NCBI GenBank assembly: GCA_944326335.1
Contig: CALVDM010000002.1
Span: 50,526-114,525 of the forward strand
DNA: 64,000 nt
Direction: 5' to 3'
Origin: an uncultured Bacteroidales bacterium
Lineage (GTDB): Bacteria; Bacteroidota; Bacteroidia; Bacteroidales; UBA932
Positions 7,632-35,235 of this stretch are shown piece by piece; positions within the stretch are counted from its first letter, which is position 1; every line of letters begins with the position of its first letter. The position numbers and the translations under genes were made by a program. A model generated the notes under the pieces. That model ran no database searches. It saw only the letters and a program-made list of their open reading frames with translations, and was not told the DNA's origin.

Positions 7632-7661
7632 TACCTTAAGAATTTCTGAATTTCAATCTGG

Positions 7662-7693: not shown

Positions 7694-7722
7694 ATTAAAA
7701 AGAATAAAGTGCCGGAAATATT

Positions 7723-8364
7723 CTATCCTCTCAGGAAATCTATCTCAGCAGCAGGATTCTCCGCCCTGAACACGGCACTCCCCGACACGAGTATCCCGGC
7801 CCCTGCGGACACGAGAGCCCGCGCATTATGCCTCGAGACACCCCCGTCCACCTCTATCGGGCAGCTGAGCCCCCTGCGGTCGATTTCCGCCTTCAGCGTA
7901 CTTATCCTGCCGTAAGACTCCTCTATGAATTTCTGTCCTCCGAACCCTGCGAACACCGACATCAGCAGCACGAAATCGCAGGAATCGAGATACGGATAGA
8001 GCTTCCCGACAGGTATGTCCGGATTTATTGCGAGCCCTGCCTTTACGCCCCTGCCCCTGATTATGGAAAGCACCTCGGACGGTTTCTCCGCAGCATCGAG
8101 ATGGAAACTGAGCATGGAGACGCCGGAGTCCGCGAAGCGTTCCACGTACCGTTCCGGATGGACTATCATCAGATGTGCATCCATCGGCTTTTCAGCCACG
8201 GCGGATATGGCATCGACTACCGGAAAGCCGTATGATATGTTAGGCACGAATACCCCGTCCATTATGTCGAGATGGAAAATGTCTGCATGCCTGTTGACCA
8301 GTCCGGCACCTTCTTCGAGATGCAGGAAATCGGCTGCGAGCATTGATACGGCTACCTTTGTCAT
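7723..8364 (-). CDS. rpe: Ribulose-phosphate 3-epimerase
   Basis: 213 residues, usual length for the family. It interconverts ribulose 5-phosphate and xylulose 5-phosphate in the pentose phosphate pathway. The TIM-barrel metal-site motifs are present: FHLDIMDGVFVPN (His and Asp near residues 31-33), DAHLMIVHPE, SVFAGFGGQKF and the phosphate-side IEVDGGVS. It starts 8 bases after the pepD stop, so it is read as the last gene of dnaA-pepD-rpe. Confidence 0.96.
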   Translation of the reverse strand: MTKVAVSMLAADFLHLEEGAGLVNRHADIFHLDIMDGVFVPNISYGFPVVDAISAVAEKPMDAHLMIVHPERYVERFADSGVSMLSFHLDAAEKPSEVLSIIRGRGVKAGLAINPDIPVGKLYPYLDSCDFVLLMSVFAGFGGQKFIEESYGRISTLKAEIDRRGLSCPIEVDGGVSRHNARALVSAGAGILVSGSAVFRAENPAAEIDFLRG

Positions 8365-8372
8365 GGCTTGTG

Positions 8373-9806
8373 TCAGCGGAAATTTGTCATTACGTCTGTA
8401 AGCAGTGCCACGAACTTGTCGAGAGATGCAAGCTCGAGCCTTTCACCGGGAGCATGGACACCCCTGATGGTCGGGCCGAACGAAATCATGTCGAGGTCCG
8501 GGTATATGTCAAGGAAAAGCCCGCACTCAAGGCCTGCATGTATCGCCCGGACAACAGGGTCTTTCCCGAAGAGTTTCCTGTAAGACTCCACACAGGCGTG
8601 CAGGACAGGAGAATTGACGTCCGGCTTCCAGCCCGGGTACTCCGACTCATGCGAGACTTCAGCCCCTGCCAGCCTGAATGCAGCTTCCACCTTCAGTGCG
8701 GCAGCCCGTCGCTCCGATGTCACGGAACTCCTCTGGCTCGTCCCGACACGTATGGTTCCGTCTCCGCGCATCTTCACCGAAGCGAGATTGGTCGAAGTCT
8801 CCACCAGCCCCTTCATGTCGCCGCTCATGGCAAGGACACCGTGCGGAGCCGCGAAGAGAGAGCGCACAAGTGCCACCGAGACCTCCGGCTCTATTGCACG
8901 GACGCCATCTCCCGGCATCGGGCACTCCACGCATTCCACGCTTATGCCGGAGTCAGTAGCGGCATATTCGCCCTTCAGGGCTTCCCCGAAAAGAGCGGCC
9001 TCCTTCATGAAACCGGCTGCAGAGTCCGGTGCAAGGGCAACCAGAGCCTCCGCCTCCCTCGCTATCGCATTTCTCTTGTTTCCTCCGTCCAGCTCTACTA
9101 CAGCCGCTTCAGGGAAGGAATACAGGAAACGTGCGAGAAGCTGGACCGCATTTGCCCGGCCCTTGTCTATGTCGTCTCCGCTATGGCCTCCGACACCGTT
9201 GAAAACCCTTACTCTGAAAAGTTTGCTGTCTCCGGCCACAGGCACCTCCCTGTAATTGAACACGGCAGTTGTGTCCATGCCTCCGGCACAGCCCACAAAG
9301 AGCTCGCCCTCGTCTTCCGAGTCGAGATTTATCAATGTCTTTCCCGTGATGAATCCAGGCTTGAGGGCCTTGGCACCGTCCATGCCTGTCTCCTCGGAGA
9401 CCGTGAAAAGGCATTCCACCTTCCCGAGCCTCAGGTCGCTTTCAAGGATTGCGAGCTGTGCAGCCATGCCAATCCCGCAGTCCGCCCCGAGGGTGGTGTC
9501 CTCGGCAATCATCCAGCCGTCTCTGAAGACATATTTTATGGGATCTCTGGAGAAATCGTGCTTCACTCCCGAATTTTTCTCGCAGACCATGTCCGAATGG
9601 CTCTGGAGGACAATGACCGGGATATCCCCGCAGCCCTCGGAAGCCTCCCTTACAATGACAACGTTGCCGGCCGCGTCAGTCCTGCATTCAAGGGACCTGG
9701 ACCTGGCGAACTCCTGGAGGAAAGCGGTAATCTTCTCCTCATGTCCGGACTCGCGGGGGATTTCCGTAATCCTCTCGAACAAGTCCAATACTTTATCTGA
9801 CAGCAT
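8373..9806 (-). CDS. pepD: Aminoacyl-histidine dipeptidase (peptidase M20C, PepD)
   Basis: 477 residues from the ATG giving MLSDKVLDLFERI, 17 bases after the dnaA stop; the open frame continues upstream into dnaA without a plausible start. It hydrolyses Xaa-His and related dipeptides in the cytoplasm. Di-zinc site: QSHSDMVCEK (His), TTLGADCGIGMA (bridging Asp), SEETGMDGA (catalytic and metal Glu), NLDSEDEGE and, at the end, AIHAGLECGLF (His). The lid domain carries FNGVGGHSGDD. Together with the M20 dipeptidase and S9 peptidase elsewhere in the window it suggests active peptide use. Confidence 0.95.
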   Translation of the reverse strand: MLSDKVLDLFERITEIPRESGHEEKITAFLQEFARSRSLECRTDAAGNVVIVREASEGCGDIPVIVLQSHSDMVCEKNSGVKHDFSRDPIKYVFRDGWMIAEDTTLGADCGIGMAAQLAILESDLRLGKVECLFTVSEETGMDGAKALKPGFITGKTLINLDSEDEGELFVGCAGGMDTTAVFNYREVPVAGDSKLFRVRVFNGVGGHSGDDIDKGRANAVQLLARFLYSFPEAAVVELDGGNKRNAIAREAEALVALAPDSAAGFMKEAALFGEALKGEYAATDSGISVECVECPMPGDGVRAIEPEVSVALVRSLFAAPHGVLAMSGDMKGLVETSTNLASVKMRGDGTIRVGTSQRSSVTSERRAAALKVEAAFRLAGAEVSHESEYPGWKPDVNSPVLHACVESYRKLFGKDPVVRAIHAGLECGLFLDIYPDLDMISFGPTIRGVHAPGERLELASLDKFVALLTDVMTNFR

Positions 9807-9823
9807 AATATGCGGTAATAAAA

Positions 9824-11245
9824 TCAGCCTCTCGCAGGGACCAGCATCTTCTCTATGTCGAGGACATACTGCCTGAACGTCTTGTCGATGCTCATCAGGT
9901 CCTGCACGGTAGAACATGCATGGAGAACGGTGGAATGGTCTTTCCCCCCTATCTCGGCACCGATTGTGGAAAGAGGGCATTTCAGGAGATTGCGGCTCAT
10001 GTACATTGCAATCTGCCTCGCCTGCACTATCTGACGCTTGCGGGACTTGGACAGAAGATTGTCCATGGTGATGTTGAAATACTGGCACACGGCCTTCTGC
10101 ACCTTGTCAATCGTGACATCGGACTTCTGCTCACCGACTATCTTGTCTGTGATTTTCCCGGCAAGCTCGACGGAAATCTCCTTGTGCGCGAATGTAGCAT
10201 TTGCTATCAGCGAAATCAACGCCCCTTCCAGTTCCCTGAAATTGGATGTTATGTGGCTCGCAAGATAGATGAGCACATCATCGCTGAGCTTCACGCCCTC
10301 CCTGAAACTGCGGGCCTTCAGCATGGAGAGCCTCGTGGCGAAATCAGGTCTCTGAAGCTCAACGGAAAGCCCCCACTTGAGGCGTGACAGAAGCCTCTCC
10401 TCGAAGTTCTGCAAATCCACCGGAGCCCTGTCCGATGTGAATATCAACTGCTTCCCGGACTGGTGCAGATGGTTGAATATCTGGAAGAAGGCATTCTGGG
10501 TCCCCGGAGAGGACATGTCCTGGATATCATCCATGATAAGCACATCCATCCGCATGTAGAACGCGAGGAAGTCCGTCAGATTGTTCTGGACATTCACGGC
10601 ATTCATGTACTGCGCCTTGAACCGGTTGGCCGGGACGTAAAGCACCACGAGCTCAGGATATTTCTCCTTTATTGCAATACCGATGGCCTGGGCGATATGC
10701 GTCTTGCCGAGCCCCGGGCCTCCGAACAGGAAAAGCGGATTGAACGCAGTCTTTCCCGGATATTGCGCGATGCTTTCACCGGCGGTGATGCCCATCTTGT
10801 TGCACTCCCCTTCCACAAGGTTTCCGAAACAATAGTTCGGATTGAGCTGGGTGTTCACCTTCACCCTCTGGAGACCGGGAATCACGAACGGATTCGGCGC
10901 TCCGGACTGCCTGTACGTAGGCACGGAGATAGGCTTGTTCTCCGGCGTGTTGCAATGCGCCGCAGGATACTCCATCGGAGGCTGCACCTTCACCGGAGCT
11001 ACCCGGTAGACCAGCTTGGCGTCCGCCCCTATCTCCCTCTTGAGAGTCTTCTTCAGCACATCGAGATAATACTCCTCGAGATACTCCCTGAAAAATTCGG
11101 AAGGGACACCCACTGTCAGCACACCGTTCTCGAAAGAGACAGGAGTGATAGGCTTGAACCAGGTCTCGAAAGCCCTCCGGTTCACTATCTGCTCTATCAT
11201 CTTGAGACAGCGCGACCATATAAGTATGTGAGTATCCTGTGACAT
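9824..11245 (-). CDS. dnaA: Chromosomal replication initiator DnaA
   Basis: 473 residues from the ATG giving MSQDTHILIWSRC; an in-frame TTG 18 bases upstream is less likely. N-terminal domain I (residues ~1-85) is followed by a short variable linker. The AAA+ domain has Walker A FGGPGLGKTHI and Walker B VLIMDDIQD, with the sensor/arginine-finger region LLSRLKWGLSVEL. Domain IV ends with the DnaA-box-binding signature GGKDHSTVLHA. It binds DnaA boxes and opens oriC. The neighbours are pepD and rpe, not dnaN/recF, as is common in Bacteroidota. Confidence 0.97.
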   Translation of the reverse strand: MSQDTHILIWSRCLKMIEQIVNRRAFETWFKPITPVSFENGVLTVGVPSEFFREYLEEYYLDVLKKTLKREIGADAKLVYRVAPVKVQPPMEYPAAHCNTPENKPISVPTYRQSGAPNPFVIPGLQRVKVNTQLNPNYCFGNLVEGECNKMGITAGESIAQYPGKTAFNPLFLFGGPGLGKTHIAQAIGIAIKEKYPELVVLYVPANRFKAQYMNAVNVQNNLTDFLAFYMRMDVLIMDDIQDMSSPGTQNAFFQIFNHLHQSGKQLIFTSDRAPVDLQNFEERLLSRLKWGLSVELQRPDFATRLSMLKARSFREGVKLSDDVLIYLASHITSNFRELEGALISLIANATFAHKEISVELAGKITDKIVGEQKSDVTIDKVQKAVCQYFNITMDNLLSKSRKRQIVQARQIAMYMSRNLLKCPLSTIGAEIGGKDHSTVLHACSTVQDLMSIDKTFRQYVLDIEKMLVPARG

Positions 11246-22969: not shown

Positions 22970-24052
22970 ATGTCAGGAAACAACAGGAATATTATCAGCA
23001 GGGAGCTTATATGGGAGTATGCCCTGCTGATTTTGATTTTCGTTCTGGGCTACATCCTGTTCAGGCAGGCGCAGATATTCATCAGCGGTGCGCTCGGGGC
23101 GTTCGCCCTGTACACCCTGCTGAGGAATGTCTCCTTCAAGCTCACGGAAAAGACCGGGAAGGCCACATTGTCGGCTGCAATCATAGTCGTTTGCGTCCTG
23201 CTGTTCATCGTGATTCCGCTGTCCCTGCTGGCATGGTTCATAGTGGCGCAGCTTCAGAAGATAAACTGGGATACCGCCAGCATCATCTCTCCGGCGATGC
23301 AGGCCATCGACATCATCAAGGAGAAATACCATGTGGACCTCATATCCGAAAAGACCATAACCTTCGTAGCAGGCAAGATAACGAGTCTCGGACAGTCCCT
23401 TATCAACGGCATAGGAGATTTCGTGATTAACGTGATCGCCGCCATGATACTGCTCTTCTTCCTGCTCACCGGCGGGCGGAAGATGGAGAACTACCTGTCC
23501 TCCCTGATTCCGATGAAGAACGTGAACAAGAAGGAGACCATCGAGAAGGTGAGCGTGATGGTGAAGTCCAATACGATAGGTATTCCGCTCGTGGCCCTTC
23601 TCCAGGGGGTAATCTCGTGGATAGGCTACATCAGTTTCGGTGTGCCATACGCCTTCCTCGCCGCATTCCTTACAGGTCTGTGCTCAGTCGTGCCTATCGT
23701 CGGGACAATGGTGGTGTGGATTCCGATAGGGATTTACTTCGCAGTGCTCGGCCTGTGGGGGAAAGCTGCAGGAATCGTGCTTTTCGGGGCAATCTGCATC
23801 TCCCAGAGTGACAATCTCCTCAGATTCATACTCCAGAAGAAAATAGCGAACACACATCCGCTCATCACAATATCCGGAGTGGTGATAGGACTCCCGCTAT
23901 TCGGGTTCATGGGAATAATATTCGGGCCTCTGCTCGTGTCCCTTTTCCTGCTGTTCGTGGACATGTTCAGGAAAGAGTACCTCTGCGACGGGAACGAGAC
24001 GGCGGAAACCGGGGAAGACAGGAAAGAGGGGGATGATGGAAGCGGCAGCTGA
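22970..24052 (+). CDS. AI-2E family transporter (UPF0118/PerM type)
   Basis: 360 residues with about eight membrane segments: a tight N-terminal trio (LILIFVLGYILF, ISGALGAFALYTLL, AAIIVVCVLLFIVIPLSLLAWF), a soluble loop, then four or five helices. GVISWIGYISFGVPYAFLAAFLTGLCSVVPIVGT is the conserved family region. Members have been linked to AI-2 export, Na+/H+ antiport or general transport; the substrate here is unknown. The C-terminal tail is acidic. It starts 12 bases after the thioredoxin gene and overlaps the next gene by 20 bases. Confidence 0.88.
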   Translation: MSGNNRNIISRELIWEYALLILIFVLGYILFRQAQIFISGALGAFALYTLLRNVSFKLTEKTGKATLSAAIIVVCVLLFIVIPLSLLAWFIVAQLQKINWDTASIISPAMQAIDIIKEKYHVDLISEKTITFVAGKITSLGQSLINGIGDFVINVIAAMILLFFLLTGGRKMENYLSSLIPMKNVNKKETIEKVSVMVKSNTIGIPLVALLQGVISWIGYISFGVPYAFLAAFLTGLCSVVPIVGTMVVWIPIGIYFAVLGLWGKAAGIVLFGAICISQSDNLLRFILQKKIANTHPLITISGVVIGLPLFGFMGIIFGPLLVSLFLLFVDMFRKEYLCDGNETAETGEDRKEGDDGSGS

Positions 24053-24635
24053 AATACCGGTGGAGACGCATCCGCTCGAGCCTTTCCTTCCCGAAGATGC
24101 AAGGCTGCTGATGCTCGGCAGCTTTCCTCCGAAACGGGAAAGATGGTCCATGGACTTCTTCTACCCAAACTTCAACAACGACATGTGGAGAATCTTCGGC
24201 CTTGTGTTCTTCTCGGACAGGGCGGCGTTCATAGCCCCGGACGGTAAGCATTTCGACAAGGATGCCATAACGGGGTTCTGCCGGGAAAGGAAAATCGCCC
24301 TGTCGGACACTGCCCTCAAGGTGAGAAGGCTGAAAGACAACGCCTCGGACAAATTTCTCGAGGTGGGGAGCCCCATGGACATCGGCTGGATTGCCGGACG
24401 GCTTCCGGAATGCAAGGCGATTGTCACCACAGGACTGAAAGCGGCAGAGATTGCAGCGGAAGCCCTGCATTGCAGCCTCCCGGCTCCCGGATGCTTCTCG
24501 GAGGGGAGCTTTATCCGGGGACAGGAAAAGAAAAGGCTCTGGAGAATGCCGTCTTCATCCAGAGCCTATCCGCTGTCTCTCGAAAAGAAGGCGGAATGCT
24601 ACCGCAGCATGTTCATGCACGAGGGTTTGATATGA
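24033..24635 (+). CDS. Uracil-DNA glycosylase superfamily protein
   Basis: 200 residues. The UDG fold begins with LLMLGSFPPKRERWSMDFFYPNFNNDMW, where LGSFPP is the motif 1 position and FYPNFNNDMW matches the family that binds the extruded base. RMPSSSRAY near residue 175 fits motif 2 (MPSTSP-like). It most resembles the UDG family 6/hypothetical G:T-mismatch group, so it may remove uracil or hypoxanthine; the substrate is unproven. The two Met codons at the start overlap the AI-2E gene by 20 bases, and it converges on lpdA. Confidence 0.75.
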   Translation: MMEAAAEIPVETHPLEPFLPEDARLLMLGSFPPKRERWSMDFFYPNFNNDMWRIFGLVFFSDRAAFIAPDGKHFDKDAITGFCRERKIALSDTALKVRRLKDNASDKFLEVGSPMDIGWIAGRLPECKAIVTTGLKAAEIAAEALHCSLPAPGCFSEGSFIRGQEKKRLWRMPSSSRAYPLSLEKKAECYRSMFMHEGLI

Positions 24636-24643
24636 GCCTGCAG

Positions 24644-26005
24644 CTAAAGGCCGGACTGCAGGACTTCACCCAAAGTCGGATGTATGTGCACGGCATGAGC
24701 CAGTTCCTCTATACCGGCTCCGGCCGACATCAGCACTGAGACCTCCTGTACAAGGGCCGAGGCATGAGGGCCGAGAACGTGGCATCCGAGGATGTCCCCG
24801 TCCTGTCCGGCCACGATTTTGCACAGCCCGTCCGTCTGTCCGAGGCACACCGCCTTGCCGTTATTCCGGAAAAACGACTTGAATGTCCTGAAAGGAATGC
24901 CTTTTTCCCTGCATGCATCTTCAGTGAGCCCTACGGCGGCTGCTTCAGGCATCGTGAATACGGCCGACGGTATCAACGGGGAAGATGTCCGGGACACATC
25001 TCCTGCAGAGATGGCATCCAGAGCCGTCTTTCCCTGGTGCACTGCGGCATGTGCGAGCATCTGCCCTCCGGTGACGTCTCCTATTGCAAAAATGCCCGGG
25101 ACAGATGTCCTCATGCAGCTGTCTACGACTATGGCGCCCCGGTCCGTCGCTATTCCGGCCGCATCGACGCACAACCGGCTGCAGTCCGGCTTCCTGCCGG
25201 CAGCCACCAGCACCTTGTCGGCCATGCAGCTTTCCATGCCCCCCTTCCTGAGCCACTTCACCTCAAGAGGGCGGGATGCCGGAGGAGTCCCCGGGACTTC
25301 GTCAGCCTCCTCCACCGCAATGACCCCGGAGCCGAGGCTGAACTTCACTCCCCTCTTCGAAAGGCTCTGCCTGAGCCGTTTTGCAATGTCATGGTCGAAA
25401 TTCGGCAACACTTCCCTGCAATACTCCACGACTGTGACATCGCTTCCGAAACTTCTGAACACGGACGCGAACTCGAGACCTATCACTCCGCCACCTATGA
25501 TGCACAGCCGTGCAGGAAGCGAGTCAAGGGCAAGCAGGCCTGCCGAGTCCACCACTCCGGGGAGATCCATTCCCGGCAGCGGAAGCATTGAAGGCCTCGA
25601 CCCCGTGGCTATGACAATGAAGTCCGCAGTGTACGCGTCTTCTCCGACAAGGACTGTCCCCGCATCCCGGAATCTGGCCATACCCCTGACAAGACGGACT
25701 CCGGAAGCCTCGAGAAGAGCCTCCACGTTGCCTCTCAGCTCCGCCACAATCCTGTCCTTGCGAGCCTTCACTGATGCGAAATCGACATGGCACTCCCCTG
25801 CGGAAATGCCGAATTCCCCGCATGCCCTTATCTCTTCGACGATTTCAGCCGAACGGCAATAAGCCTTTGTAGGTATGCAGCCCTCGTTGAGACATACGCC
25901 TCCCACATGTCCGCCCTCCACAAGGGTGACTTTCCACCCTCTCCGTGCAGCTTCCAGGGCAGTCTCATAGCCGCCGGGGCCGGCACCGATTATCAGGATT
26001 TCCAT
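24644..26005 (-). CDS. lpdA: Dihydrolipoyl dehydrogenase (L protein of glycine cleavage)
   Basis: 453 residues. It reoxidises dihydrolipoyl groups on GcvH with NAD+. FAD site IIGAGPGGYETALEAARRG at the N-terminus; redox disulfide CLNEGC (Cys38/Cys43); NAD site CIIGGGVIGLEFASVF near residue 172; second FAD motif GIFAIGDVTGGQMLAHAAVHQG; C-terminal catalytic HIHPTLGE with the active-site His/Glu pair. It is the last gene of the bile-salt-hydrolase/glycine operon and overlaps gcvPB by 13 bases, which ties it to glycine cleavage rather than to a 2-oxoacid dehydrogenase. Confidence 0.95.
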   Translation of the reverse strand: MEILIIGAGPGGYETALEAARRGWKVTLVEGGHVGGVCLNEGCIPTKAYCRSAEIVEEIRACGEFGISAGECHVDFASVKARKDRIVAELRGNVEALLEASGVRLVRGMARFRDAGTVLVGEDAYTADFIVIATGSRPSMLPLPGMDLPGVVDSAGLLALDSLPARLCIIGGGVIGLEFASVFRSFGSDVTVVEYCREVLPNFDHDIAKRLRQSLSKRGVKFSLGSGVIAVEEADEVPGTPPASRPLEVKWLRKGGMESCMADKVLVAAGRKPDCSRLCVDAAGIATDRGAIVVDSCMRTSVPGIFAIGDVTGGQMLAHAAVHQGKTALDAISAGDVSRTSSPLIPSAVFTMPEAAAVGLTEDACREKGIPFRTFKSFFRNNGKAVCLGQTDGLCKIVAGQDGDILGCHVLGPHASALVQEVSVLMSAGAGIEELAHAVHIHPTLGEVLQSGL

Positions 26006-27411
26006 GTGAGTTTCAGATGAGTTGCGGCAAGTGTCTCGTCGGGACGGCGCACCGGTGTGGTGTGCGGGGCGGACTTCAGCAGTCCGAGAGAAGACTCTGC
26101 CTCATCGGCAATCCTGCGCATGGCGTCAATGAACGCATCGAGCGTCTCGAGCGACTCTGTCTCGGTAGGCTCTATCATTATGGACTGGTGGAAAAGCAGA
26201 GGGAAATAGATGGTGGGTGCATGGAAACCGTAGTCGAGCAGACGCTTGGCGATGTCCAGCGTGGTCACCTGCTGTCCGTCGCCGGCATCCTGCCTTGCAA
26301 GACCGTCGTAAACGAATTCATGCTTGCACAGCGACGGCACCGGCAGCCTGTACCTGTCTTTCAGGGACTCCTTCACATAGTTGGCGGCAAGCACGGCCAG
26401 CGGCCCTACCCTGCCTATGTTCTGCCTCCCGAGGGAGAGGATGTATGCGTATGCCTTCATGAGAACGCCGAAATTGCCGTGAAATGCAGACACGCGACCG
26501 ATTTCGGGAATGAGGCCGGCAAGGGAGGCCGTAACGCCGACAGGTCCGGCCCCGGGACCTCCGCCGCCATGCGGGGTGGAGAATGTCTTGTGGAGGTTCA
26601 GATGCATGATGTCGAAACCCATGTCGGCTGGGCGCACCTTCCCGAGCAGCGCGTTCATGTTGGCACCGTCGTAGTAAAGCAGTCCCCCTGCCTCGTGTAC
26701 GCACTTCACTATCTCCCGGATTCCCGTCTCGAAAAGGCCGAGAGTATTGGGGTTGGTCATCATTATTCCTGCCACTGTATCGTCGAGCAGAGGGCGCAGA
26801 TGGTCCATGTCTATCAGCCCCTCCGGAGTGGAACGGACCTGGACTACCTCCAGGCCGCAGACGGCTGCGCTTGCCGGGTTGGTCCCGTGTGCGCTGTCAG
26901 GGACTATTATCCTTGTCCTTTTCAGGTCTCCCCGCGAGATGTGGTACTGCCGCATTATCATGAGCCCCGTGAGTTCACCGTGGGCCCCGGCACAGGGGTT
27001 CAGGGTGAAGGCTGCCATGCCTGTCAGCTTGCAAAGGCAGTCGGAGAGCTCCCTGCACAGCTGCAATGCCCCCTGCACAGTCTCTTCCGGCTGGAGCGGA
27101 TGCAGATGTGCGAATCCGGGATGGGAGGCAAGTTCCTCGTCTATCCTCGGGTTGTACTTCATCGTGCAGCTGCCGAGCGGGTAGAAACCGGTGTCCACAC
27201 TGTAATTCATGCCTGAAAGGTTGACATAGTGGCGGACCACATCAGGCTCGCTGACCTGCGGCAGTGCGGGTCTGGTTTCCCGCCTCAGGTTCTGTGGCAG
27301 ACAGCCGGTGTTTTCTTCCCAGCTGCCTTCCGGCAGAGAGTAGCCGCAGCGGCCCTCTCTGGAAAGTTCGAATATCAGTCTGTCGTAATTTTTCATTACC
27401 GGAAAATTCAA
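25993..27411 (-). CDS. gcvPB: Glycine dehydrogenase (decarboxylating) subunit 2
   Basis: 472 residues, the C-terminal half of P protein as a separate polypeptide. With GcvPA it decarboxylates glycine and loads the aminomethyl group onto lipoyl-GcvH. PLP-binding Lys about residue 275 in MHLNLHKTFSTPHGGGGPG, with the glycine-rich loop that follows. YPLGSCTMKYNPRIDE near residue 75 and GQNIGRVGPLAVLAANY are also family hallmarks. It starts 7 bases after gcvPA. Confidence 0.95.
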   Translation of the reverse strand: MNFPVMKNYDRLIFELSREGRCGYSLPEGSWEENTGCLPQNLRRETRPALPQVSEPDVVRHYVNLSGMNYSVDTGFYPLGSCTMKYNPRIDEELASHPGFAHLHPLQPEETVQGALQLCRELSDCLCKLTGMAAFTLNPCAGAHGELTGLMIMRQYHISRGDLKRTRIIVPDSAHGTNPASAAVCGLEVVQVRSTPEGLIDMDHLRPLLDDTVAGIMMTNPNTLGLFETGIREIVKCVHEAGGLLYYDGANMNALLGKVRPADMGFDIMHLNLHKTFSTPHGGGGPGAGPVGVTASLAGLIPEIGRVSAFHGNFGVLMKAYAYILSLGRQNIGRVGPLAVLAANYVKESLKDRYRLPVPSLCKHEFVYDGLARQDAGDGQQVTTLDIAKRLLDYGFHAPTIYFPLLFHQSIMIEPTETESLETLDAFIDAMRRIADEAESSLGLLKSAPHTTPVRRPDETLAATHLKLTWKS

Positions 27412-27418
27412 GTTAACG

Positions 27419-28750
27419 TCAGTTCGCTTTCAATGATGAAACGGCGTCCACAAGGGCGTCTATTTCTTCTCTGGACCTGTTCTCGGTGACGCAGAACGAG
27501 ACGAGGCCGTCTCCGCATGACAGGGCTCCGAAAAACCCTTTCTCCACAAGGGTCTTCTGGAGAAGCCCGGCAGGCACCTTGCTCCGGAGCACGAACTCCT
27601 TCAGGAAAGGCTTGTCGAAGGCTTCTGAAAAGAGGCCTGTTGCGAGAAGCCTCGAATGCAGGTAGTGCGCCCCGCCATAGGAAAGGTCATTGACGCGTTT
27701 CAGCCCGTCCGGCCCCATCAGGGACAGGTACACAGTGACATAGAGAGCCATGAGGGATTCGTTGGAGCAGATGTTGCTCGTGGCCTTCTCCCTTCTGATA
27801 TGCTGCTCGCGGGCCTGGAGGGTGAGGACGAATGCCCGTCTGCCGTCCGCATCAACAGTCTCTCCCACGATGCGCCCGGGCAGTTTCCTCACATGCTCCT
27901 GACGGCAGCAAAGGAAGCCGATATACGGACCGCCGAACGAGAGAGGTATGCCGAGAGTCTGGGCATCTCCGCAGGCTATATCCGCGCCCCACCCGGCCGG
28001 AGTGGTCAAGACGGCGAGGGAAGACGGGTCCGAATAGACAATCAGCAGGGCTTTTGCATCATGGACGGCATCCGCAAAGCCCGACAGGTCCTCGATGATG
28101 CCGAAACGGTTGATGCCCGGAACCATGACTCCGGCGACATCCCCTGCCTGGAGCTCCCGCCTTATCGCCTCAAGGTCCGACACGCCGGAGCGATGAGGTA
28201 TGACCGTGAGACCGACACCGTGGAATCTGCAATATGTGCCGGCGACCTGCAGGACATGAGGCAGCAGGGTTCCGGAGACCAGTACCCGGCGTTTCTTCCT
28301 CGTGCATGCCACCGACATCAGCAGGGCCTCGGCCGCCGATGTGGGACCGTCGTACATGGACGCGTTGGAGCAGTCGAGCCCCGTGAGCATGCACATCATG
28401 GTCTGGAATTCGAAGATATAGCGCAATGTGCCCTGCGAAACCTCGGCCTGGTACGGCGTATAGGATGTAAGGAATTCCGCACGGGAGATTATCGCCGGGA
28501 CCACGGCCGGAGAATAATGGTCGTATGCCCCTGCCCCGCAGAACACCTTGAGGGGGATATTCATTGAAGCAAGGCCGTCGAATTTCCTGCGCAGCTCCAT
28601 CTCGGACATGGCGTCCGGGATGTCGAAACTTCCCTTGAAAAGCATGTCCCCCGGGACATCTGCATAGAGGTCGTCCAGAGAAACCGCCCCTATCTTCGAA
28701 AGCATTGCCCTGATGTCCTCGTCCGTGTGGGGAAAATATGCGAATGCCAT
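27419..28750 (-). CDS. gcvPA: Glycine dehydrogenase (decarboxylating) subunit 1
   Basis: 443 residues from the ATG giving MAFAYFPHTDEDIRAML; the frame opens further upstream, but only inside gcvH. N-terminal half of P protein. Typical motifs: SYTPYQAEVSQGTLRYIFEFQTM near residue 112, YDGPTSAAEALLMS, and SFGGPYIGFLCCRQEHVRKLPGR. It has no PLP Lys of its own, as expected for this subunit. It starts 13 bases after gcvH. The split PA/PB arrangement is normal for many bacteria, unlike the single ~950-residue GcvP of Bacteroides and E. coli. Confidence 0.94.
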   Translation of the reverse strand: MAFAYFPHTDEDIRAMLSKIGAVSLDDLYADVPGDMLFKGSFDIPDAMSEMELRRKFDGLASMNIPLKVFCGAGAYDHYSPAVVPAIISRAEFLTSYTPYQAEVSQGTLRYIFEFQTMMCMLTGLDCSNASMYDGPTSAAEALLMSVACTRKKRRVLVSGTLLPHVLQVAGTYCRFHGVGLTVIPHRSGVSDLEAIRRELQAGDVAGVMVPGINRFGIIEDLSGFADAVHDAKALLIVYSDPSSLAVLTTPAGWGADIACGDAQTLGIPLSFGGPYIGFLCCRQEHVRKLPGRIVGETVDADGRRAFVLTLQAREQHIRREKATSNICSNESLMALYVTVYLSLMGPDGLKRVNDLSYGGAHYLHSRLLATGLFSEAFDKPFLKEFVLRSKVPAGLLQKTLVEKGFFGALSCGDGLVSFCVTENRSREEIDALVDAVSSLKAN

Positions 28751-28763
28751 ATCGACTCTGTCT

Positions 28764-29150
28764 TTATTCCTGTCCGGCAACAAATTCCGAATATGCCGCG
28801 GCATCCATGAGAGCCTCGATCTCGGCAGGATTGTCCATCCTCACCCTGATTATCCAGTTCGTGTACGGGTCCTTGTTCAGGAGCCCCGGCTCGTCTTCAA
28901 GGGCGGCATTCCTTTCCGTGACCACACCGGACACGGGAGAATAGAGGTCACTCGCAGCCTTGACGCTTTCGACAGCGCCGAATTCCTCATTCTGTTCAAT
29001 CCTGTCGTCTTCTTCCGGCATGTCCACATAGACTATGCTGCCCATGGATTTCTGTGCGAAATCCGAAATGCCTATAGTGGCAATGTCTCCGTCGACCTTT
29101 ACCCACTCATGTGATTCGCTGTATGACAGCCCTTCAATTATCCTGCTCAT
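28764..29150 (-). CDS. gcvH: Glycine cleavage system H protein
   Basis: 128 residues from the ATG giving MSRIIEGLSYSESHEW. It carries the aminomethyl group between P, T and L on a lipoyl arm; the lipoylated Lys is Lys64 in GAVESVKAAS, the same position as in E. coli. The biotinyl/lipoyl fold also shows DFAQKSMGSIVYVDMP and SPVSGVV. It lies 19 bases after gcvT. The upstream lplA in the same operon is the likely enzyme that lipoylates it. Confidence 0.96.
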   Translation of the reverse strand: MSRIIEGLSYSESHEWVKVDGDIATIGISDFAQKSMGSIVYVDMPEEDDRIEQNEEFGAVESVKAASDLYSPVSGVVTERNAALEDEPGLLNKDPYTNWIIRVRMDNPAEIEALMDAAAYSEFVAGQE

Positions 29151-29169
29151 ATCCTTGTTGTTATATTGG

Positions 29170-30264
29170 TTATTTCCTGTATCTGCATTCGTAGAATCTC
29201 CTTGCACACACGGTGCCCGGGAAAAGTTTCCTGCGTATCCTGACCCCGACCATGGTCCCTTTTTCAGCAAAAGCGGTGTCGATGAAAGCCATGCATACGC
29301 TCTTTCCCGTGGAAATCGAGATATAGCCTGTGGTCACCGTGCCCACCTGTGCGCTGTCGTGCTCCACCGGATAGCCCGCACGCGGCACGGCCTTGTCCTG
29401 AAGTTCTATCCCGACGAGCTTCCGTTCCAGTCCGGCTTCCTTCAAGGCGAGGACGGCGGATTTCCCTATGAAGTCCGGCTTCGATGTCTTGACAAAGATG
29501 CCGAGACCTGCCTCGAGCGGCGATATGTCCGGGCCGAGCTCGTGGCCGTAGAGCGGCAGACCGGCCTCGAAACGCAGAGTGTCCCGACAGCCGAGGCCGC
29601 AAGGTGTGACCTTGGCGGCAAGAAGCGCAGACCATATCCGCCTTATCACTGAAGGGGAACCGTAAAATTCAAATCCGTCTTCACCGGTGTAGCCTGAACG
29701 GCTCGCCACCACCTTTTCTCCCTCGAACTCTGTTTCGCAGAAAGTGTAGAAGACCAGGGAGGAGAGGTCCATCCCGAGCTCTTTAGCGGCTACGGCTTCG
29801 GAATCAGGCCCCTGCAGGGCAATCTGCCCGAAGTCTCCGGACCTGTCCTTCACCTGCACGTCACGGCCTGCCGCGGCGGCACAAATCCATTCGAAATCCT
29901 TCTCAATGTTCGAGGCATTGACCACAAGCATATAGGAGCCAGGCGCGTCAAGCCTGTAAACCAGGAGGTCGTCAACGACACCTCCGTCCGGGTAAAGCAT
30001 CATGCCGTATCTTGCATGCCATGGCTCGAGACCGGAAACGTCGTTCGTGAAAATGTAGTCCAGGAATGCGGCGGCATCCGGGCCGGACACCGAAATCTCC
30101 CCCATGTGCGACACGTCGAACATTCCGCAATGCTGCCTTACGGCATTGTGCTCGGGAATGATGCCGGAATACTGGATAGGCATGATGAAACCGCCGAACG
30201 GGCTCATCTGTGCGCCCAATGCCAGATGGCTGTCATAAAGACATGTTTCCTTCAGATTTTCCAT
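29170..30264 (-). CDS. gcvT: Glycine cleavage system T protein (aminomethyltransferase)
   Basis: 364 residues. It transfers the methylene unit from aminomethyl-lipoyl GcvH to tetrahydrofolate, releasing ammonia. Motifs: GGFIMPIQYSGIIPEHNAVR at the N-terminus, FDVSHMGEISVSGPDA, LALQGPDS-like IALQGPDSEAV, RSGYTGEDGFEFY, and RDTLRFEAGLPLYGHEL for folate and substrate binding, followed by the C-terminal barrel. It overlaps the end of lplA by 32 bases, a long overlap that implies coupled translation. Confidence 0.95.
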   Translation of the reverse strand: MENLKETCLYDSHLALGAQMSPFGGFIMPIQYSGIIPEHNAVRQHCGMFDVSHMGEISVSGPDAAAFLDYIFTNDVSGLEPWHARYGMMLYPDGGVVDDLLVYRLDAPGSYMLVVNASNIEKDFEWICAAAAGRDVQVKDRSGDFGQIALQGPDSEAVAAKELGMDLSSLVFYTFCETEFEGEKVVASRSGYTGEDGFEFYGSPSVIRRIWSALLAAKVTPCGLGCRDTLRFEAGLPLYGHELGPDISPLEAGLGIFVKTSKPDFIGKSAVLALKEAGLERKLVGIELQDKAVPRAGYPVEHDSAQVGTVTTGYISISTGKSVCMAFIDTAFAEKGTMVGVRIRRKLFPGTVCARRFYECRYRK

Positions 30265-31012
30265 TGTGTTTCAGTCCTTTTATGAATTTATCGTCGAGAT
30301 ATGGCTCCATAATCCTCTCTATCGCGGCCATGTCATCTCCGGAAAGCGTGAGGAGAGAACTGCAGAAACGGTCCTTCAGGGTCTTCCCGATTGCCGGAAG
30401 CCCCGCGGCATGGAAGTCCTTCAGGTTGGCGACCCGCTGCCTCACGGATGATATGCCCTTTGAGCCGAGTTTCGCGGCAGAAGGTGTTATGGCATTCTGC
30501 ATCATCTCCAGATTGACATCGTAGAGAAGGGTGGCATGAATGATATCCCTGCCGCCCAGGCCATAGAACGCGCTCCCGGAAACCTTTCTCCCCGAGACTA
30601 GTATGTCGTTCCTCCCGGAAGGGTCCGCATCGTAGCCGAGATCCCGGAGGCACTGCGCCATGGCGGAAATGAATCTGTTGAAAAGCCTTGTCCCTCCGTT
30701 CCCTCCTGTCACGAAAGAGACCATCAGATTCCCCTCGTCGGCATACACGCAACCCCCTCCGCTCTTGCGCCGGAACATCCGGATTCCATTGCATTCGCAG
30801 AAAGGCACGTTGACTTCCGCTTCCATGTCCTGATGCCTTCCGAAAATGACTGTCGGAGGCACTTTCCAGAGAAAGAAGAATGTCCCGTCACGCTTCCTTG
30901 CCAGATATTCCTCCGCTGCAAGGTAGAACACGAGAAGACGCCCTGCCGCGTCTCTGGGAAACACGACGTATGAAGCACGAGGCAGAATGTCATCCGGGAG
31001 CGTGACCGTCAT
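30233..31012 (-). CDS. lplA: Lipoate-protein ligase A
   Basis: 259 residues. It activates lipoate with ATP and attaches it to lysines such as Lys64 of GcvH. Lipoate-binding loop RRKSGGGCVYADEGN (Arg81-Gly87 onward) and the catalytic Lys about residue 143 in SGRKVSGSA; HATLLYDVN follows. It is shorter than the 338-residue E. coli enzyme, so the C-terminal accessory domain is missing or much reduced. The start codon overlaps the stop of the bile salt hydrolase gene (ATGA), and the end overlaps gcvT, so all three are translated from one message. Confidence 0.92.
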   Translation of the reverse strand: MTVTLPDDILPRASYVVFPRDAAGRLLVFYLAAEEYLARKRDGTFFFLWKVPPTVIFGRHQDMEAEVNVPFCECNGIRMFRRKSGGGCVYADEGNLMVSFVTGGNGGTRLFNRFISAMAQCLRDLGYDADPSGRNDILVSGRKVSGSAFYGLGGRDIIHATLLYDVNLEMMQNAITPSAAKLGSKGISSVRQRVANLKDFHAAGLPAIGKTLKDRFCSSLLTLSGDDMAAIERIMEPYLDDKFIKGLKHNGKSEGNMSL

Positions 31013-32100
31013 TTCACCTTGATGAATTCAACCGGCTGGTCCATGACCTTGTCAAGGGGTGCGGAAGTGAATTTCACCTTGTCGAAGTTTATGGATTTCA
31101 AGTCGATACACCTGATTGTGGAATTCCACGCCGTCCTGTAGTAGAACCTCAGGGCCTTGAGGTCCGAAGATGTTGTCCATTGGGTCGCGCTCGGAAGATT
31201 GTCAGGCACTGTCCCTGAGGAAGGGTCGTGCTCTATGCCGATAGGTATATCGAAATTGTTGAGAATCTGGAATGTCTCCTTCACGGTCTCGAACCCTGTC
31301 GCATACCGGGGAGCCGTGGTCTGATAGAAAGCGGCCCTCACGAAGCGTGACGGAGGAGTCACGTCTCCAGGGATGCCCCTGAAACCTGTGCCTGCACCGA
31401 AAGAGGAAAGTTCCACCCCCTCTGCCAGCTTCTGCGGCCTGGCATTGCCGGGATACAGGTTCACATAGTTGTTCAGGTTGGTCATCTGCCACTCGAAACC
31501 CGGCGAATTGGTGAGCACCCCGAGACGGTTCTCGTGGAAAGTCGGCTTCTGTCCGACAATCTCAAGGACCACCTGACGGCCGGAAGCGTCGCAGATACGC
31601 CAGTGTGCCGTACCGGTCTCCGGAGTCAGGGCCACCACCCTTATCCGGTCTATGGAGGAAATGACTTCCTCAACAGTGGAGAAGTTGCCGAGAATCCATG
31701 CTGCAAGCTGCACATCCACAAGGGTGCCGGAGCTCCGGGCAGGGTCATAGTCCTCGTACTCGCCGTAACCCGGGAAGAAGAACAGCCCGGCGGAAAGCCC
31801 GGCCTCGTTCAACCCTTCGGTGACGAAGCTGTCCTGCATGACAGATATTCCGGCATAGCCGTACCTGGCCGTAAATTCGAGACCGGGAGCCCCGTCCGGC
31901 GTCATGGCCGTCTGGGTATAGCCTCTCGGCACAATCACATATCTGCTCTGGAGATAACTTCCACCCCATTCGCATGTCCTTGCAAGGACACGGCTGCTGT
32001 CTTTCGACATCAATGTTATGCCTGTACAGGCACGGGATTCACCCGATGCGGCCATGAAAAGCGCGATGGCCGACAAAACCAGAATTCCAGCTTTCATCAT
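31009..32100 (-). CDS. Secreted choloylglycine hydrolase / linear amide C-N hydrolase (bile salt hydrolase-like)
   Basis: 363 residues; the start is the first of two adjacent ATGs. A signal peptide (residues 1-24, ending GESRA) is followed directly by Cys25, so cleavage would expose the N-terminal nucleophile of the Ntn fold. By alignment from memory with Clostridium perfringens CBAH (Cys2, Arg18, Asp21, Asn82, Asn175, Arg228) the equivalents are Cys25, Arg41, Glu44 (Glu for Asp), Asn98 in EGLNEAGL, Asn198 in LTNSPGFEW and Arg252 in SRFVRAA. TPDGAPGLEFTARYGYAG places it in the Gram-negative cluster that includes Brucella CGH. That cluster hydrolyses conjugated bile salts, but some members prefer penicillin V or acyl-homoserine lactones. 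It is the first gene of the glycine operon. Confidence 0.88.
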   Translation of the reverse strand: MMKAGILVLSAIALFMAASGESRACTGITLMSKDSSRVLARTCEWGGSYLQSRYVIVPRGYTQTAMTPDGAPGLEFTARYGYAGISVMQDSFVTEGLNEAGLSAGLFFFPGYGEYEDYDPARSSGTLVDVQLAAWILGNFSTVEEVISSIDRIRVVALTPETGTAHWRICDASGRQVVLEIVGQKPTFHENRLGVLTNSPGFEWQMTNLNNYVNLYPGNARPQKLAEGVELSSFGAGTGFRGIPGDVTPPSRFVRAAFYQTTAPRYATGFETVKETFQILNNFDIPIGIEHDPSSGTVPDNLPSATQWTTSSDLKALRFYYRTAWNSTIRCIDLKSINFDKVKFTSAPLDKVMDQPVEFIKVK

Positions 32101-32117
32101 GTTATCAATTTGTGGTC

Positions 32118-32168
32118 GGCAGGTGAGCGGAGAGGGAGTCTGCAATCCCTTCTTTCCGGACACCTGCC
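32118..32168 (-). promoter_or_regulatory. Long imperfect hairpin before the bile salt hydrolase gene
   Basis: An outer 8-bp stem (GGCAGGTG/CACCTGCC), then CGGA/TCCG and AGGGA/TCCCT, closes on an 8-base loop: 17 base pairs in 51 bases. It begins 18 bases upstream of the start codon and ends 1 base from the -7 box. It would therefore be either a 5'-terminal RNA structure or a DNA inverted repeat at the promoter. It lacks glycine-riboswitch consensus features. Confidence 0.55.
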
Positions 32169-32169
32169 A

Positions 32170-32201
32170 TAAATGTACGCAGTTATTCATAATTAAACAA
32201 T
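32170..32201 (-). promoter_or_regulatory. Promoter of the bile salt hydrolase-lplA-gcv-lpdA operon
   Basis: On the minus strand: ATTG, 20 bases, TACATTTA, each box with one mismatch to TTTG / TAnnTTTG. No other promoter was seen within the seven-gene run, whose genes overlap or lie within 19 bases of each other. Confidence 0.5.
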
Positions 32202-32208
32202 ATTTTTG
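32201..32208 (+). promoter_or_regulatory. Possible -7 element for the DPP-IV-like gene
   Basis: TATTTTTG matches TAnnTTTG, 31 bases before the start codon, but has no TTTG at -33. It touches the divergent operon promoter, so the two units may compete for RNA polymerase. Confidence 0.35.
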
Positions 32209-32238
32209 AATAACTTCGCAACACAAAAAACGGTTCTT

Positions 32239-34398
32239 ATGAAAAGAGAGATAAAGTACGAGATTCTGCCGCTTGCCATTGCCCTTGCGGCATCGACCCA
32301 GCTTCCGGCCCAGGACGGCGTATTCGCCACAAGACCGCAGGAGACTGAAGCTGCAAGGCTGCTTACGATGGAGGAGTCCGAGCTCGGGAACCACCTCAAG
32401 CCTGCCGACATGAGCATAATCTGGAGACCCGGCACCTCGACGTTGACAGTGTTCGAAAACGGAAGCCTGACAGGCAGGAAGCCTCTTGAAGGAACCGTGG
32501 AAGTGATTCTTGCCGCAGACGATATCCGGACCGCCGCGGAAGGAGAGGAAGCCGCCTTCGAAGGATGGCTCGACTCCGCTCATGCAGTGTTCAAGACCGG
32601 AAGGACATACATCATCATGGACACGGAAGGGAAACGGTGCACCGGCAAGGTGACGCTTCCGGAAGGGGCGGCTTCCCTCACGCTCAACCCCGCCGGCAAC
32701 CATCCGTACACGTCAGGCAACAGCCTGTATTTCTGCGACAACTCCGGGAACAGCTACCCCATAGCCGTAAGCGAGGACAGCAACATAATATACGGGCAGA
32801 CTGTCAGCCGCAATGAATTCGGCATAAGCGGGGGAATTTTCCTCAGCGGAACAGGAAAGAAGGTGGCTTTCTACAGGAAGGACGAGTCCGCCGTGGGCAC
32901 ATTCCCTCTGCTTGACATAAATTCGCGTACAGGCTCTCTCAGAGAGATAAAATACCCGATGGCAGGCATGGCATCCGAGAATGTCCGGATAGGGATTTAC
33001 GATTTCGCGGCAGGCACGACGGTCTGGCTCGGATGCGACGATTTCGGGCATGACCAGTATCTGACCGGAGTGACATGGTCTCCGGACGGGAACCACATCC
33101 TCGTCCAGGTCCTCGACAGGAGCCAGAAGCACCTGAGGCTGAACATGTACGACTCCTCGACCGGAAGATATGTCAGGACCATACTCACGGAGGACAACGA
33201 CAGGTACGTCGAGCCTCAGGACCCGGTATGGTTCCTTGAAGGCAGCGACGACACCTTCATATACAGGACCGACAACCGCGACGGCTACAGGAACCTCTAT
33301 CTTTGTGATTTCGACGGGAATGTCAGGAGGCTCACGCAGACCGATGCCGATGTGGCTTACATAGGCAACGACGGGAAAAACGTATATTACACCTCTGCCG
33401 AAGTCTCCCCGGTGGAGAACCATCTGTTCAGGGTCGGGGTAAGGAACGGGAAAACGGCAAGGCTCACAAGCCAGACCGGCTGGCATACGGTAAGCCTCAG
33501 CCCGGACTGCAGCTGCTTTGCGGACAGCTACAGCAGCCTGTGCGTCCCGAGGGTGATAGACGTCTGCTCCACATCAGGAAACGGAAGGACCAACCTGCTG
33601 ACCGCACCCGACCCAGTGTCGGAGTACAGGTACGGCGAGATATCCCTCGGGAAGATACGGAGTGCCGACGGGAAATACGACAACTACTACAGGCTGGTAA
33701 AGCCGGTGGATTTCGACCCGGAGAAGAAATACCCCGTGATAGTCTATGTCTATGGAGGTCCGCATTCACAGCTTGTGAAGAATACCTGGCTCGGGGAGCT
33801 GCGCAGATGGGAGATGGTGATGGCACAGAAAGGATACATCGTCTATGTACAGGACAACAGGGGCACGCAGAACCGCGGGGCCGAGTTCGAGAAGGCCATT
33901 TACGGACAGTGCGGACAGGCCGAGATGGCGGACCAGATGGAAGGCGTCAGGATGCTTTGCGGACTGCCGTATGTGGACAGGGACCGCATCGGCGTCCACG
34001 GCTGGAGCTACGGAGGGTTCATGACGATATCGCTTGTCACGAACTATCCTGACGTGTTCAAGGTGGCCGTGGCCGGAGGGCCCGTGATAGACTGGAAATG
34101 GTACGAGGTGATGTACGGTGAAAGATACATGGGCAACCCCGCCGTCAACAGCGAGGGCTACGCAAAGACGAGCCTCCTGGCGAAGGCTGCAGACCTGAAA
34201 GGCAGGCTGCTTATATGCCAGGGCATGGTGGACGACGTGGTGGTGCCCGAGCACAGCATGAGTTTCGTCGAGGAGTGCATCAGGCACAATGTCCAGGTGG
34301 ACTACTTCCCTTATCCATGCTCGAAGCACAACATGACCGGAACGGCCAGGGTGCATCTCATGGACAAGGTCACAATGTATTTCGAGAATAACCTATAG
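32239..34398 (+). CDS. Dipeptidyl peptidase IV-like serine peptidase (S9B)
   Basis: 719 residues from the ATG giving MKREIKYEILP; the in-frame TTG at 32206 overlaps the -7 element. A short signal peptide ends near LPAQDG. Residues ~40-480 form a beta-propeller (LTQTDADVAYIGNDGKNVYY and similar blades); ~490-719 are the alpha/beta hydrolase domain. Catalytic triad: Ser590 in GWSYGGFM, Asp665 in MVDDVV, His697 in CSKHNM. It removes dipeptides, usually Xaa-Pro, in the periplasm. It runs divergently from the bile salt hydrolase operon, and its end overlaps the convergent pyrF stop by 6 bases. Confidence 0.93.
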   Translation: MKREIKYEILPLAIALAASTQLPAQDGVFATRPQETEAARLLTMEESELGNHLKPADMSIIWRPGTSTLTVFENGSLTGRKPLEGTVEVILAADDIRTAAEGEEAAFEGWLDSAHAVFKTGRTYIIMDTEGKRCTGKVTLPEGAASLTLNPAGNHPYTSGNSLYFCDNSGNSYPIAVSEDSNIIYGQTVSRNEFGISGGIFLSGTGKKVAFYRKDESAVGTFPLLDINSRTGSLREIKYPMAGMASENVRIGIYDFAAGTTVWLGCDDFGHDQYLTGVTWSPDGNHILVQVLDRSQKHLRLNMYDSSTGRYVRTILTEDNDRYVEPQDPVWFLEGSDDTFIYRTDNRDGYRNLYLCDFDGNVRRLTQTDADVAYIGNDGKNVYYTSAEVSPVENHLFRVGVRNGKTARLTSQTGWHTVSLSPDCSCFADSYSSLCVPRVIDVCSTSGNGRTNLLTAPDPVSEYRYGEISLGKIRSADGKYDNYYRLVKPVDFDPEKKYPVIVYVYGGPHSQLVKNTWLGELRRWEMVMAQKGYIVYVQDNRGTQNRGAEFEKAIYGQCGQAEMADQMEGVRMLCGLPYVDRDRIGVHGWSYGGFMTISLVTNYPDVFKVAVAGGPVIDWKWYEVMYGERYMGNPAVNSEGYAKTSLLAKAADLKGRLLICQGMVDDVVVPEHSMSFVEECIRHNVQVDYFPYPCSKHNMTGTARVHLMDKVTMYFENNL

Positions 34399-35235
34399 GA
34401 TGCGTGCGGTCTGCGAAGCCACCTTCGCAGCCGACTTCGCAAAATTCTGGGTGGAATCGGCGTAAAGTATGCCGCGGGAAGAATTGATGAGGAGGCCACC
34501 CTTGTCGTTTGCCCCGTGTCTCATCACTTCCTCGGCAGAGCCGCCTTGTGCCCCCACACCCGGGACAAGAAGGAAATTGTCCGGGCAGAACGTCCTGATT
34601 TCGGCAAGTTTCTCCGCCTTTGTCGCACCTACGACGAACATCATGTTGTCCGGGCTCGAAATGGACATCATCTCCTCCATGACAGCCCTGTAGAGAGGCT
34701 TGCCGTCCTTCTCGGCGAGCTGGAACTGCTCGGCCGAAGAATTTGACGTGAGAGCGAGGACTATCGCCCACTTGCCTTCGTATTCCAGGAATGGCTCGAT
34801 GCTGTCCCTGCCCATGTATGGAGAAAGCGTCACCGCATCGAAATCCATGGTCTCGAAGAATGCCCTGGCATATTTCCTGGCGGTGTTCCCTATATCCCCC
34901 CTCTTGGCGTCCGCAATCAGGAACATTCCAGGATATGTGGTCCTGATATAGTCCACCGTGGCCTCGAGAGCCCGGATTCCGTCTTCCCCATAGCATTCAT
35001 AGAAAGCGAGATTGGGCTTGTATGCCACGCAATATTTGGCTGTCGCGTCGATTATGGCCTTGTTGAATTCTATGATGGAGCGGGTCTTCCCCCCGAAAAG
35101 GTGGCCCTTGATTGCTATTTCCGACGTTGCGAGTCCCTTTATGTGTTCCGGCATCTTGTCGTAGTCCACATCGAGGCCCACGCAGAGCATCGTCTTCTTT
35201 TCCTGAATCTGTCTGTACAAATCTTCCCTGTCCAT
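34393..35235 (-). CDS. pyrF: Orotidine 5'-phosphate decarboxylase (type 2)
   Basis: 280 residues, matching the longer PyrF2 form. It makes UMP from OMP, the last step of pyrimidine synthesis, a pathway fed by carAB in this window. Active-site motif IADAKRGDIGNTARKYA (the Lys/Asp network), N-terminal LCVGLDVDYDKMP, and phosphate loop LLVPGVGAQGG. It starts 30 bases after the M20 dipeptidase stop, so the pair is probably co-transcribed. Confidence 0.96.
   Translation of the reverse strand: MDREDLYRQIQEKKTMLCVGLDVDYDKMPEHIKGLATSEIAIKGHLFGGKTRSIIEFNKAIIDATAKYCVAYKPNLAFYECYGEDGIRALEATVDYIRTTYPGMFLIADAKRGDIGNTARKYARAFFETMDFDAVTLSPYMGRDSIEPFLEYEGKWAIVLALTSNSSAEQFQLAEKDGKPLYRAVMEEMMSISSPDNMMFVVGATKAEKLAEIRTFCPDNFLLVPGVGAQGGSAEEVMRHGANDKGGLLINSSRGILYADSTQNFAKSAAKVASQTARIL

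Follow-up and report, generated by a model that had tools for sequence, protein, structure and literature searches.

A choloylglycine hydrolase-family gene at the head of a glycine cleavage operon in one subclade of Candidatus Cryptobacteroides

When a gene for a bile-salt-hydrolase-like enzyme directly precedes a complete set of glycine cleavage genes, does the arrangement encode a route for the use of bile-derived glycine, or does it record the history of a chromosomal neighbourhood? The question is raised by seven genes in a 64,000-base stretch of DNA (hereafter the window; contig CALVDM010000002.1, positions 50,526 to 114,525) from an uncultured bacterium of the genus Candidatus Cryptobacteroides, whose genome is a 2.34 Mb assembly of 61 contigs, 89.7% complete. 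A preliminary description had read the locus as both an operon and a dedicated pathway for bile-derived glycine. The operon order holds in a subclade of 16 species, while the dedicated pathway is not supported and is partly contradicted, though not refuted. We consider it probable that a local rearrangement set a taurine-type hydrolase gene in front of six genes of a glycine cleavage operon, and that the two do not form a dedicated bile-glycine route. The locus is a real operon, common to one subclade and built of known parts.

Gene order at the locus and in its relatives

The seven genes of the operon, and the divergent neighbour that lies outside it, are the following.

31009-32100, minus strand: choloylglycine hydrolase (CGH)-family gene, bile-salt-hydrolase-like, 363 amino acids (Pfam CBAH, 201 bits)
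30233-31012, minus strand: lplA, lipoate-protein ligase catalytic domain (Pfam LplA-B_cat, 159.7 bits)
29170-30264, minus strand: gcvT, aminomethyltransferase (NCBIfam TIGR00528, 362.3 bits, cut-off 235.85)
28764-29150, minus strand: gcvH, lipoyl carrier protein (NCBIfam TIGR00527, 151.6 bits, cut-off 115.85)
27419-28750, minus strand: gcvPA, glycine dehydrogenase subunit 1 (NCBIfam NF001696, 547.2 bits, cut-off 364)
25993-27411, minus strand: gcvPB, glycine dehydrogenase subunit 2 (NCBIfam NF003346, 679.6 bits, cut-off 441)
24644-26005, minus strand: lpdA, dihydrolipoyl dehydrogenase (NCBIfam TIGR01350, 452 bits, cut-off 408.8)
32206-34398, plus strand: S9-family peptidase, divergent neighbour outside the operon (Pfam DPPIV_N and Peptidase_S9)

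Coordinates and family profiles bear out the genes, their order and their spacing as first described: three pairs of neighbours overlap, by 4, 32 and 13 bases, and the other three are separated by 19, 13 and 7 bases. The four-base overlap, between the hydrolase gene and lplA, reads ATGA. The T, H, split P and L components of the glycine cleavage system all score above their NCBIfam cut-offs, and LplA falls below that of TIGR00545 (207.8 vs 280). Judged by their spacing, the hydrolase and lplA-gcv genes are likely to be co-transcribed.

Across 400 genomes of the genus, the hydrolase was detected in 98 (E<=1e-30), lplA in 331 (E<=1e-20) and gcvPB in 340 (E<=1e-50), counts that rest on draft genomes, so that gaps in the assemblies may account for some of the absences. 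Annotation of the region around the hydrolase gene in all 98 genomes places the gene immediately before lplA, in the same orientation, in 17: the window and 15 related species, with gaps of -4 to 46 bases, and G263, with a gap of 22 bases. Because 15 other species share the hydrolase-lplA-gcv order, it is beyond chance, and the synteny in relatives on which the preliminary description made its reading depend is present within this subclade in tight, co-directional form. Among the 81 non-adjacent genomes, 74 have no lplA downstream of the hydrolase gene within the fetched stretch, less than 1 kb of downstream sequence is available in six (G260, G095, G198, G226, G282 and G408), and in G068, the sister species of the clade (L097, about 7100-10130), some 645 bases with an antisense open reading frame (ORF) separate the two genes.

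The 16 adjacent species cluster together in the hydrolase tree (support 88/85; the short hydrolase pieces of G288 and G361 were left out), as do the 15 with data in the gcv tree (SH-aLRT, an approximate likelihood-ratio support, of 100 by a quick method; G400, G308 and G198 were left out). In both trees their sister is G068 together with G260. G263, whose branch is long in each tree, falls among six non-adjacent species in the hydrolase tree, on which a single clade of all 17 adjacent cases was rejected (approximately unbiased test, p-AU 0.0024). A single old gain followed by two losses may also account for the 17 cases.

Both parts of the arrangement exist apart from each other. The lplA-gcv-lpdA order recurs at loci where the hydrolase gene lies elsewhere or is absent, and the hydrolase gene retains its S9, pyrF and M20 neighbours where gcv is far off, as in G155, where the two lie about 95 kb apart on one contig. 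The S9 gene is found within 1 kb of the hydrolase gene in 16 of the 81 non-adjacent genomes, G068 and G260 included, and marks the older neighbourhood of the hydrolase, since it adjoins it in nearer relatives with gcv elsewhere. The gcv operon of the clade, in turn, has its hypDG/topB downstream flank in common with G143 and G271, whose lplA follows ppx. The S9 peptidase gene itself is divergent in nine and tandem in seven of the 16 clade species, a sign of repeated local inversion.

The position immediately upstream of lplA has been filled by unrelated genes in sister lineages, and this is the main reason why position is weak evidence of function here. We surveyed a chosen, non-random set of 31 lplA loci, 26 with a callable lplA ORF and five without, measuring gaps from the longest ORF and naming ppk, ppx, YggS and YidC from a reading of the sequences. 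ppx lies immediately upstream of lplA in nine of the 26, preceded by ppk wherever the contig continues, at gaps of -4 to 165 bases (13 or fewer in four of the nine), and twice with the same four-base overlap as in the window. A YggS-like gene behind a YidC-like gene occupies the position in four of the 26; the remaining occupants are the hydrolase gene in G263, the antisense ORF in G068 and various genes in 11 loci. The occurrence of ppk-ppx before lplA-gcv in a sister subclade (L131, 5263-8313; L135, 8496-11608; and seven further loci) is an equally odd pairing in its own right. By the logic applied to bile, ppx in this position would make an equal case for a polyphosphate-glycine pathway; finding an operon in a single genome is not enough to infer a pathway when polyphosphate genes fill the same slot in sister species.

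The two functions are not associated by presence either. gcvPB was detected in 87 of the 98 hydrolase-bearing genomes and in 253 of the 302 others of the genus (Fisher p=0.26), and lplA in 87/98 and 244/302 (p=0.09); G327, listed as 100% complete, carries the hydrolase with neither lplA nor gcvPB at the set limits. Outside the genus no such linkage was seen at the loci examined. The hydrolase was found in 37 of 314 genomes at the level of the order, two of them of Candidatus Cryptobacteroides; of the 35 others, 28 provided loci (the seven without a locus were left out), and none of these 28 has lplA or gcv within about 1.5 kb. A dedicated operon for bile glycine is thus not what linkage and co-occurrence indicate (17/98 in the genus, 0/28 outside it, p=0.26). 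Among 80 named loci, out of at least 526 relatives listed, six carry lplA or gcv within flanks that extend to at most 6 kb, and these six are not independent cases because they are the same as G366, G400, G252, G383, G130 and G363. One locus outside the genus (L302) has an lpdA-like match of 32% identity in its flank and no lplA or gcv gene.

On plasmids, lplA and gcv are absent from the feature tables of two regions with a relative of the hydrolase, one from Parabacteroides and one from E. coli. Matches occur in 194 plasmid records, 24 of them from Escherichia; the E. coli conjugative plasmid NZ_CP010201.1 (L204, 3001-7062) carries a CGH-family gene, 43% identical to the window hydrolase, that adjoins genes annotated as an NAD-dependent malic enzyme and an anion permease. 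On an Enterococcus faecium plasmid (L208, 1-1275), a bsh gene lies directly behind an annotated conjugated bile salt MFS transporter.

The presence of lplA in the operon requires no bile explanation. Lipoyl synthase (lipA) scored above cut-off in none of 50 genomes of the genus and in 10 of 14 control genomes; sub-threshold matches of 18-26 bits, seen in 33 of the 50, were taken for other radical-SAM proteins. The genus looks auxotrophic for lipoate, and since no lipA exceeds the cut-off in any of the 50 genomes, a ligase within the gcv operon points to lipoate scavenging for GcvH. GcvH is the only lipoyl acceptor found in the genome of the window, because the sole PF00364 match there is a biotin carrier with EAMKM.

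A search for sigma-70-type promoters on both strands of 23500-34500 returned eight matches, compared with 4.4 (standard deviation 2.4) in shuffled sequence, for a consensus that is not that of the Bacteroidota. Three of them fall on the minus strand within the operon (30336, 29164 and 26016) and were set aside as internal promoters, being weak matches near the shuffled level to a consensus wrong for the phylum. No glycine riboswitch or other Rfam element reached the gathering score in the window or at seven related loci, and no tRNA or tmRNA was detected in the window.

Identity and substrate preference of the hydrolase

The preliminary description had named the first gene of the operon a bile salt hydrolase (BSH). 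Its place in the CGH family of N-terminal nucleophile (Ntn) hydrolases (PF02275) is supported by a Pfam CBAH score of 201 bits (cut-off 20.4), a predicted N-terminal catalytic Cys and a modelled CGH fold. The protein falls short of both the NCBIfam equivalog for bile salt hydrolases (NF038245, 181.3 vs 350 bits) and that for penicillin V amidases/acylases (NF058572, 172.8 vs 600 bits), so that bile salt hydrolase is here a family-level name. The NCBIfam models may not cover this Bacteroidales subgroup. As the leader, read by eye, ends in ...SRA just before Cys25, the enzyme is probably exported, with Cys25 as the N-terminal nucleophile after removal of the signal peptide. The position of Asp21 in CGH enzymes is Glu in the window hydrolase, in all 96 scored homologues of the genus (G288 and G361 again left out) and in 80 of 80 named relatives out of at least 526 listed; a CGH subgroup bearing Glu21 could merit assay.

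These scores leave room for a penicillin V acylase (PVA)-like enzyme, or another acyl-amide hydrolase, that acts in nature on something other than bile salts and whose place in the operon is incidental. A structure model built from 42 sequences (pLDDT, the model confidence, of 81.8, still <50 in the loop region 234-248), which replaced a poor model from 11 sequences (pLDDT 61.6), was closely matched by BSH and PVA structures alike, and fold comparison was dropped as a means of telling the two apart. Against the PVA-like reading, the conjugated bile acid hydrolase of C. perfringens is the closest enzyme both by sequence and by Foldseek, and relatives of the hydrolase occur in gut Bacteroidales; we regard this reading as unlikely.

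For bile salt hydrolases, the available passages of Foley et al. associate S-R-X loops with a preference for glycine conjugates and G-X-G loops with a preference for taurine conjugates, and describe a Glu conserved in glycine-preferring enzymes that is Gly in taurine-preferring ones (PMC10066039). In the window hydrolase, a G-A-G aligns with the S-R-G of the L. intestinalis, E. hirae and E. faecalis enzymes and with the G-T-G of an L. salivarius enzyme nearly identical to the L. salivarius BSH structure 5HKE; the L. salivarius BSH is grouped in the same passages with taurine-preferring enzymes (PMC10066039). The paired position, where Glu would be expected under a glycine preference, is Gly in the window hydrolase and Asp in the L. 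salivarius enzyme, so this second mark is not universal. The window hydrolase lacks the S-R-X loop and paired Glu of glycine-preferring enzymes and, by motif, has the G-X-G predicted for taurine-preferring ones. The 98 loops of the genus are GAG (42), GHG (31), GGG (13), GGN (7) and SGG (5), with no S-R-X among them, and the paired residue, scored in 96, is Ala (47), Gly (42), Ser (4) or Leu (3), never Glu; all 16 clade enzymes combine G-A-G with Gly. An S-R-X loop is likewise absent from 80 named relatives out of at least 526 listed.

The sole clade member with a known host, Candidatus Cryptobacteroides intestinipullorum (G363, with its hydrolase at 3455-4483 of a 13,939-base contig), was described from the chicken gut in the part of the report available (PMC8035907), and broiler bile acids are given in part of another as mainly taurine-conjugated, with a serum taurine:glycine ratio of about 92:1 (PMC8652638). 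Selectivity features and host both point away from the glycine conjugates on which the proposed pathway would draw. By published loop rules, the likeliest substrates of the hydrolase are taurine-conjugated or mixed bile salts, which it would cleave outside the cytoplasm, and it may have activity on glycine conjugates as well.

The favoured explanation and its alternatives

In the explanation that we favour, the stable functional unit would be lplA-gcvT-gcvH-gcvPA-gcvPB-lpdA, a six-gene glycine cleavage operon in a lineage that, apparently unable to make lipoate, would scavenge it to charge GcvH. A rearrangement in the ancestor of the window's subclade would have put this operon directly downstream of an older hydrolase and S9 peptidase pair, and the hydrolase gene, first in the observed gene order, would have become the first gene of a transcript suggested by the spacing. 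The exported enzyme, its Cys25 exposed on removal of the signal peptide, would act outside the cytoplasm on bile salts that are taurine-conjugated or mixed, and its link to glycine cleavage would be a shared promoter and not a bile-glycine catabolic route.

Several observations weigh against this explanation. The loop rule may not carry over, having been derived from enzymes about 26-28% identical to the window hydrolase, and Glu replaces Asp21 in 96 of 96 scored homologues; the paired position is Gly in 42 of the 96 enzymes scored in the genus, and Asp in the L. salivarius enzyme, which prefers taurine; and the evidence from the host covers one of the 16 clade species. The 22-base junction of G263, which lies off the clade, is a possible second joining; its upstream neighbours differ, a perM homologue coming first and a putative arginine deiminase next, with S9, pyrF and M20 further on as in the window. 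Finally, the hydrolase-lplA junction is intact in all 16 clade species while the S9 gene next to it stands tandem in seven and divergent in nine, and an intact junction beside a flipping neighbour is a hint of constraint. Such stability is not specific to the hydrolase-lplA pair, because hypDG, perM and topB are also retained in the clade where contigs extend that far.

The dedicated pathway of the preliminary description, in which the hydrolase frees glycine from bile salts and the cell imports it and converts it through the glycine cleavage system to one-carbon units, ammonia and NADH, could draw on the same facts: a complete system directly downstream of the hydrolase, at gaps of -4 to 46 bases, in 16 species, and G263 as a possible second joining. 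The general idea that glycine released by bile salt hydrolases feeds bacteria is already in print, nutrient use of the freed glycine being proposed in part of one report (PMC7019666). We nonetheless judge this pathway improbable, in view of the taurine-type loop with S-R-X in 0/98, the taurine-dominated bile acids of the chicken host of one named member, the lack of association between hydrolase and gcvPB, and the occupation of this slot by unrelated genes in sister lineages. In B. thetaiotaomicron, whose enzyme is of a different type, bile acids left glycine metabolism genes unchanged according to part of a further report (PMC10783122).

A broader functional pairing would hold that hydrolase and glycine cleavage genes were joined more than once, in the clade and in G263, because co-expression pays, with an exported, taurine-type, Glu21-bearing hydrolase feeding a glycine cleavage pathway auxotrophic for lipoate either with an amino acid from bile or with lipoate held in amide form. 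We give it little credence; if true, bile deconjugation or the recovery of lipoate would be connected with a defined pathway for energy and one-carbon units in a gut genus rich in species, and growth experiments could directly test the long-standing idea that bacteria feed on the products of deconjugation. Bile acids, like lipoate, are carboxylic acids whose pentanoyl-type chain is bound through an amide, and the narrower proposal that the exported hydrolase frees lipoate from amide-linked lipoyl-lysine outside the cell for the neighbouring LplA, for which the joining to lplA twice on the tree and the lack of lipA above cut-off in 50 of 50 genomes can be cited, is very improbable given that 11 of the 98 hydrolase-bearing genomes, the 100% complete G327 among them, have no detectable lplA, that relatives occur in many Bacteroidales without lplA in the flank, and that no lipoamidase is known to belong to the CGH family.

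Among known systems, the C. perfringens conjugated bile acid hydrolase (2BJF) is the best sequence match to the window hydrolase (E 8.8e-44), and the model suggests the same fold (Foldseek E 3.5e-25 to 2RF8). The equivalents of its Cys, Arg18, Asn175 and Arg228 are present by alignment and are taken to have the same roles. The window hydrolase differs from the C. perfringens and Lactobacillaceae enzymes in its export leader, in Glu for Asp21 and in Phe for Asn82, and from the C. perfringens enzyme in having G-A-G and Gly where the latter has a G-Q-G loop and Glu at the paired position. The B. thetaiotaomicron BSH (3HBC, 6UFY) is only distantly related (3HBC, E 6.4e-24), and its BSHb is reported, in part of the same source as above, to be without the selectivity loop (PMC10783122); P. 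distasonis carries both types, WP_121956717.1 (55% to the window hydrolase) and WP_121955847.1 (best match 6UFY). We found no paper describing this gene order in searches of the literature on bile salt hydrolase with glycine cleavage or with Cryptobacteroides. Downstream of the hydrolase gene, the locus resembles known glycine cleavage operons that include a lipoate-protein ligase, with the same four activities, a split P protein and a salvage ligase for GcvH; unlike them, it is headed by a predicted exported CGH-family hydrolase, in this subclade only.

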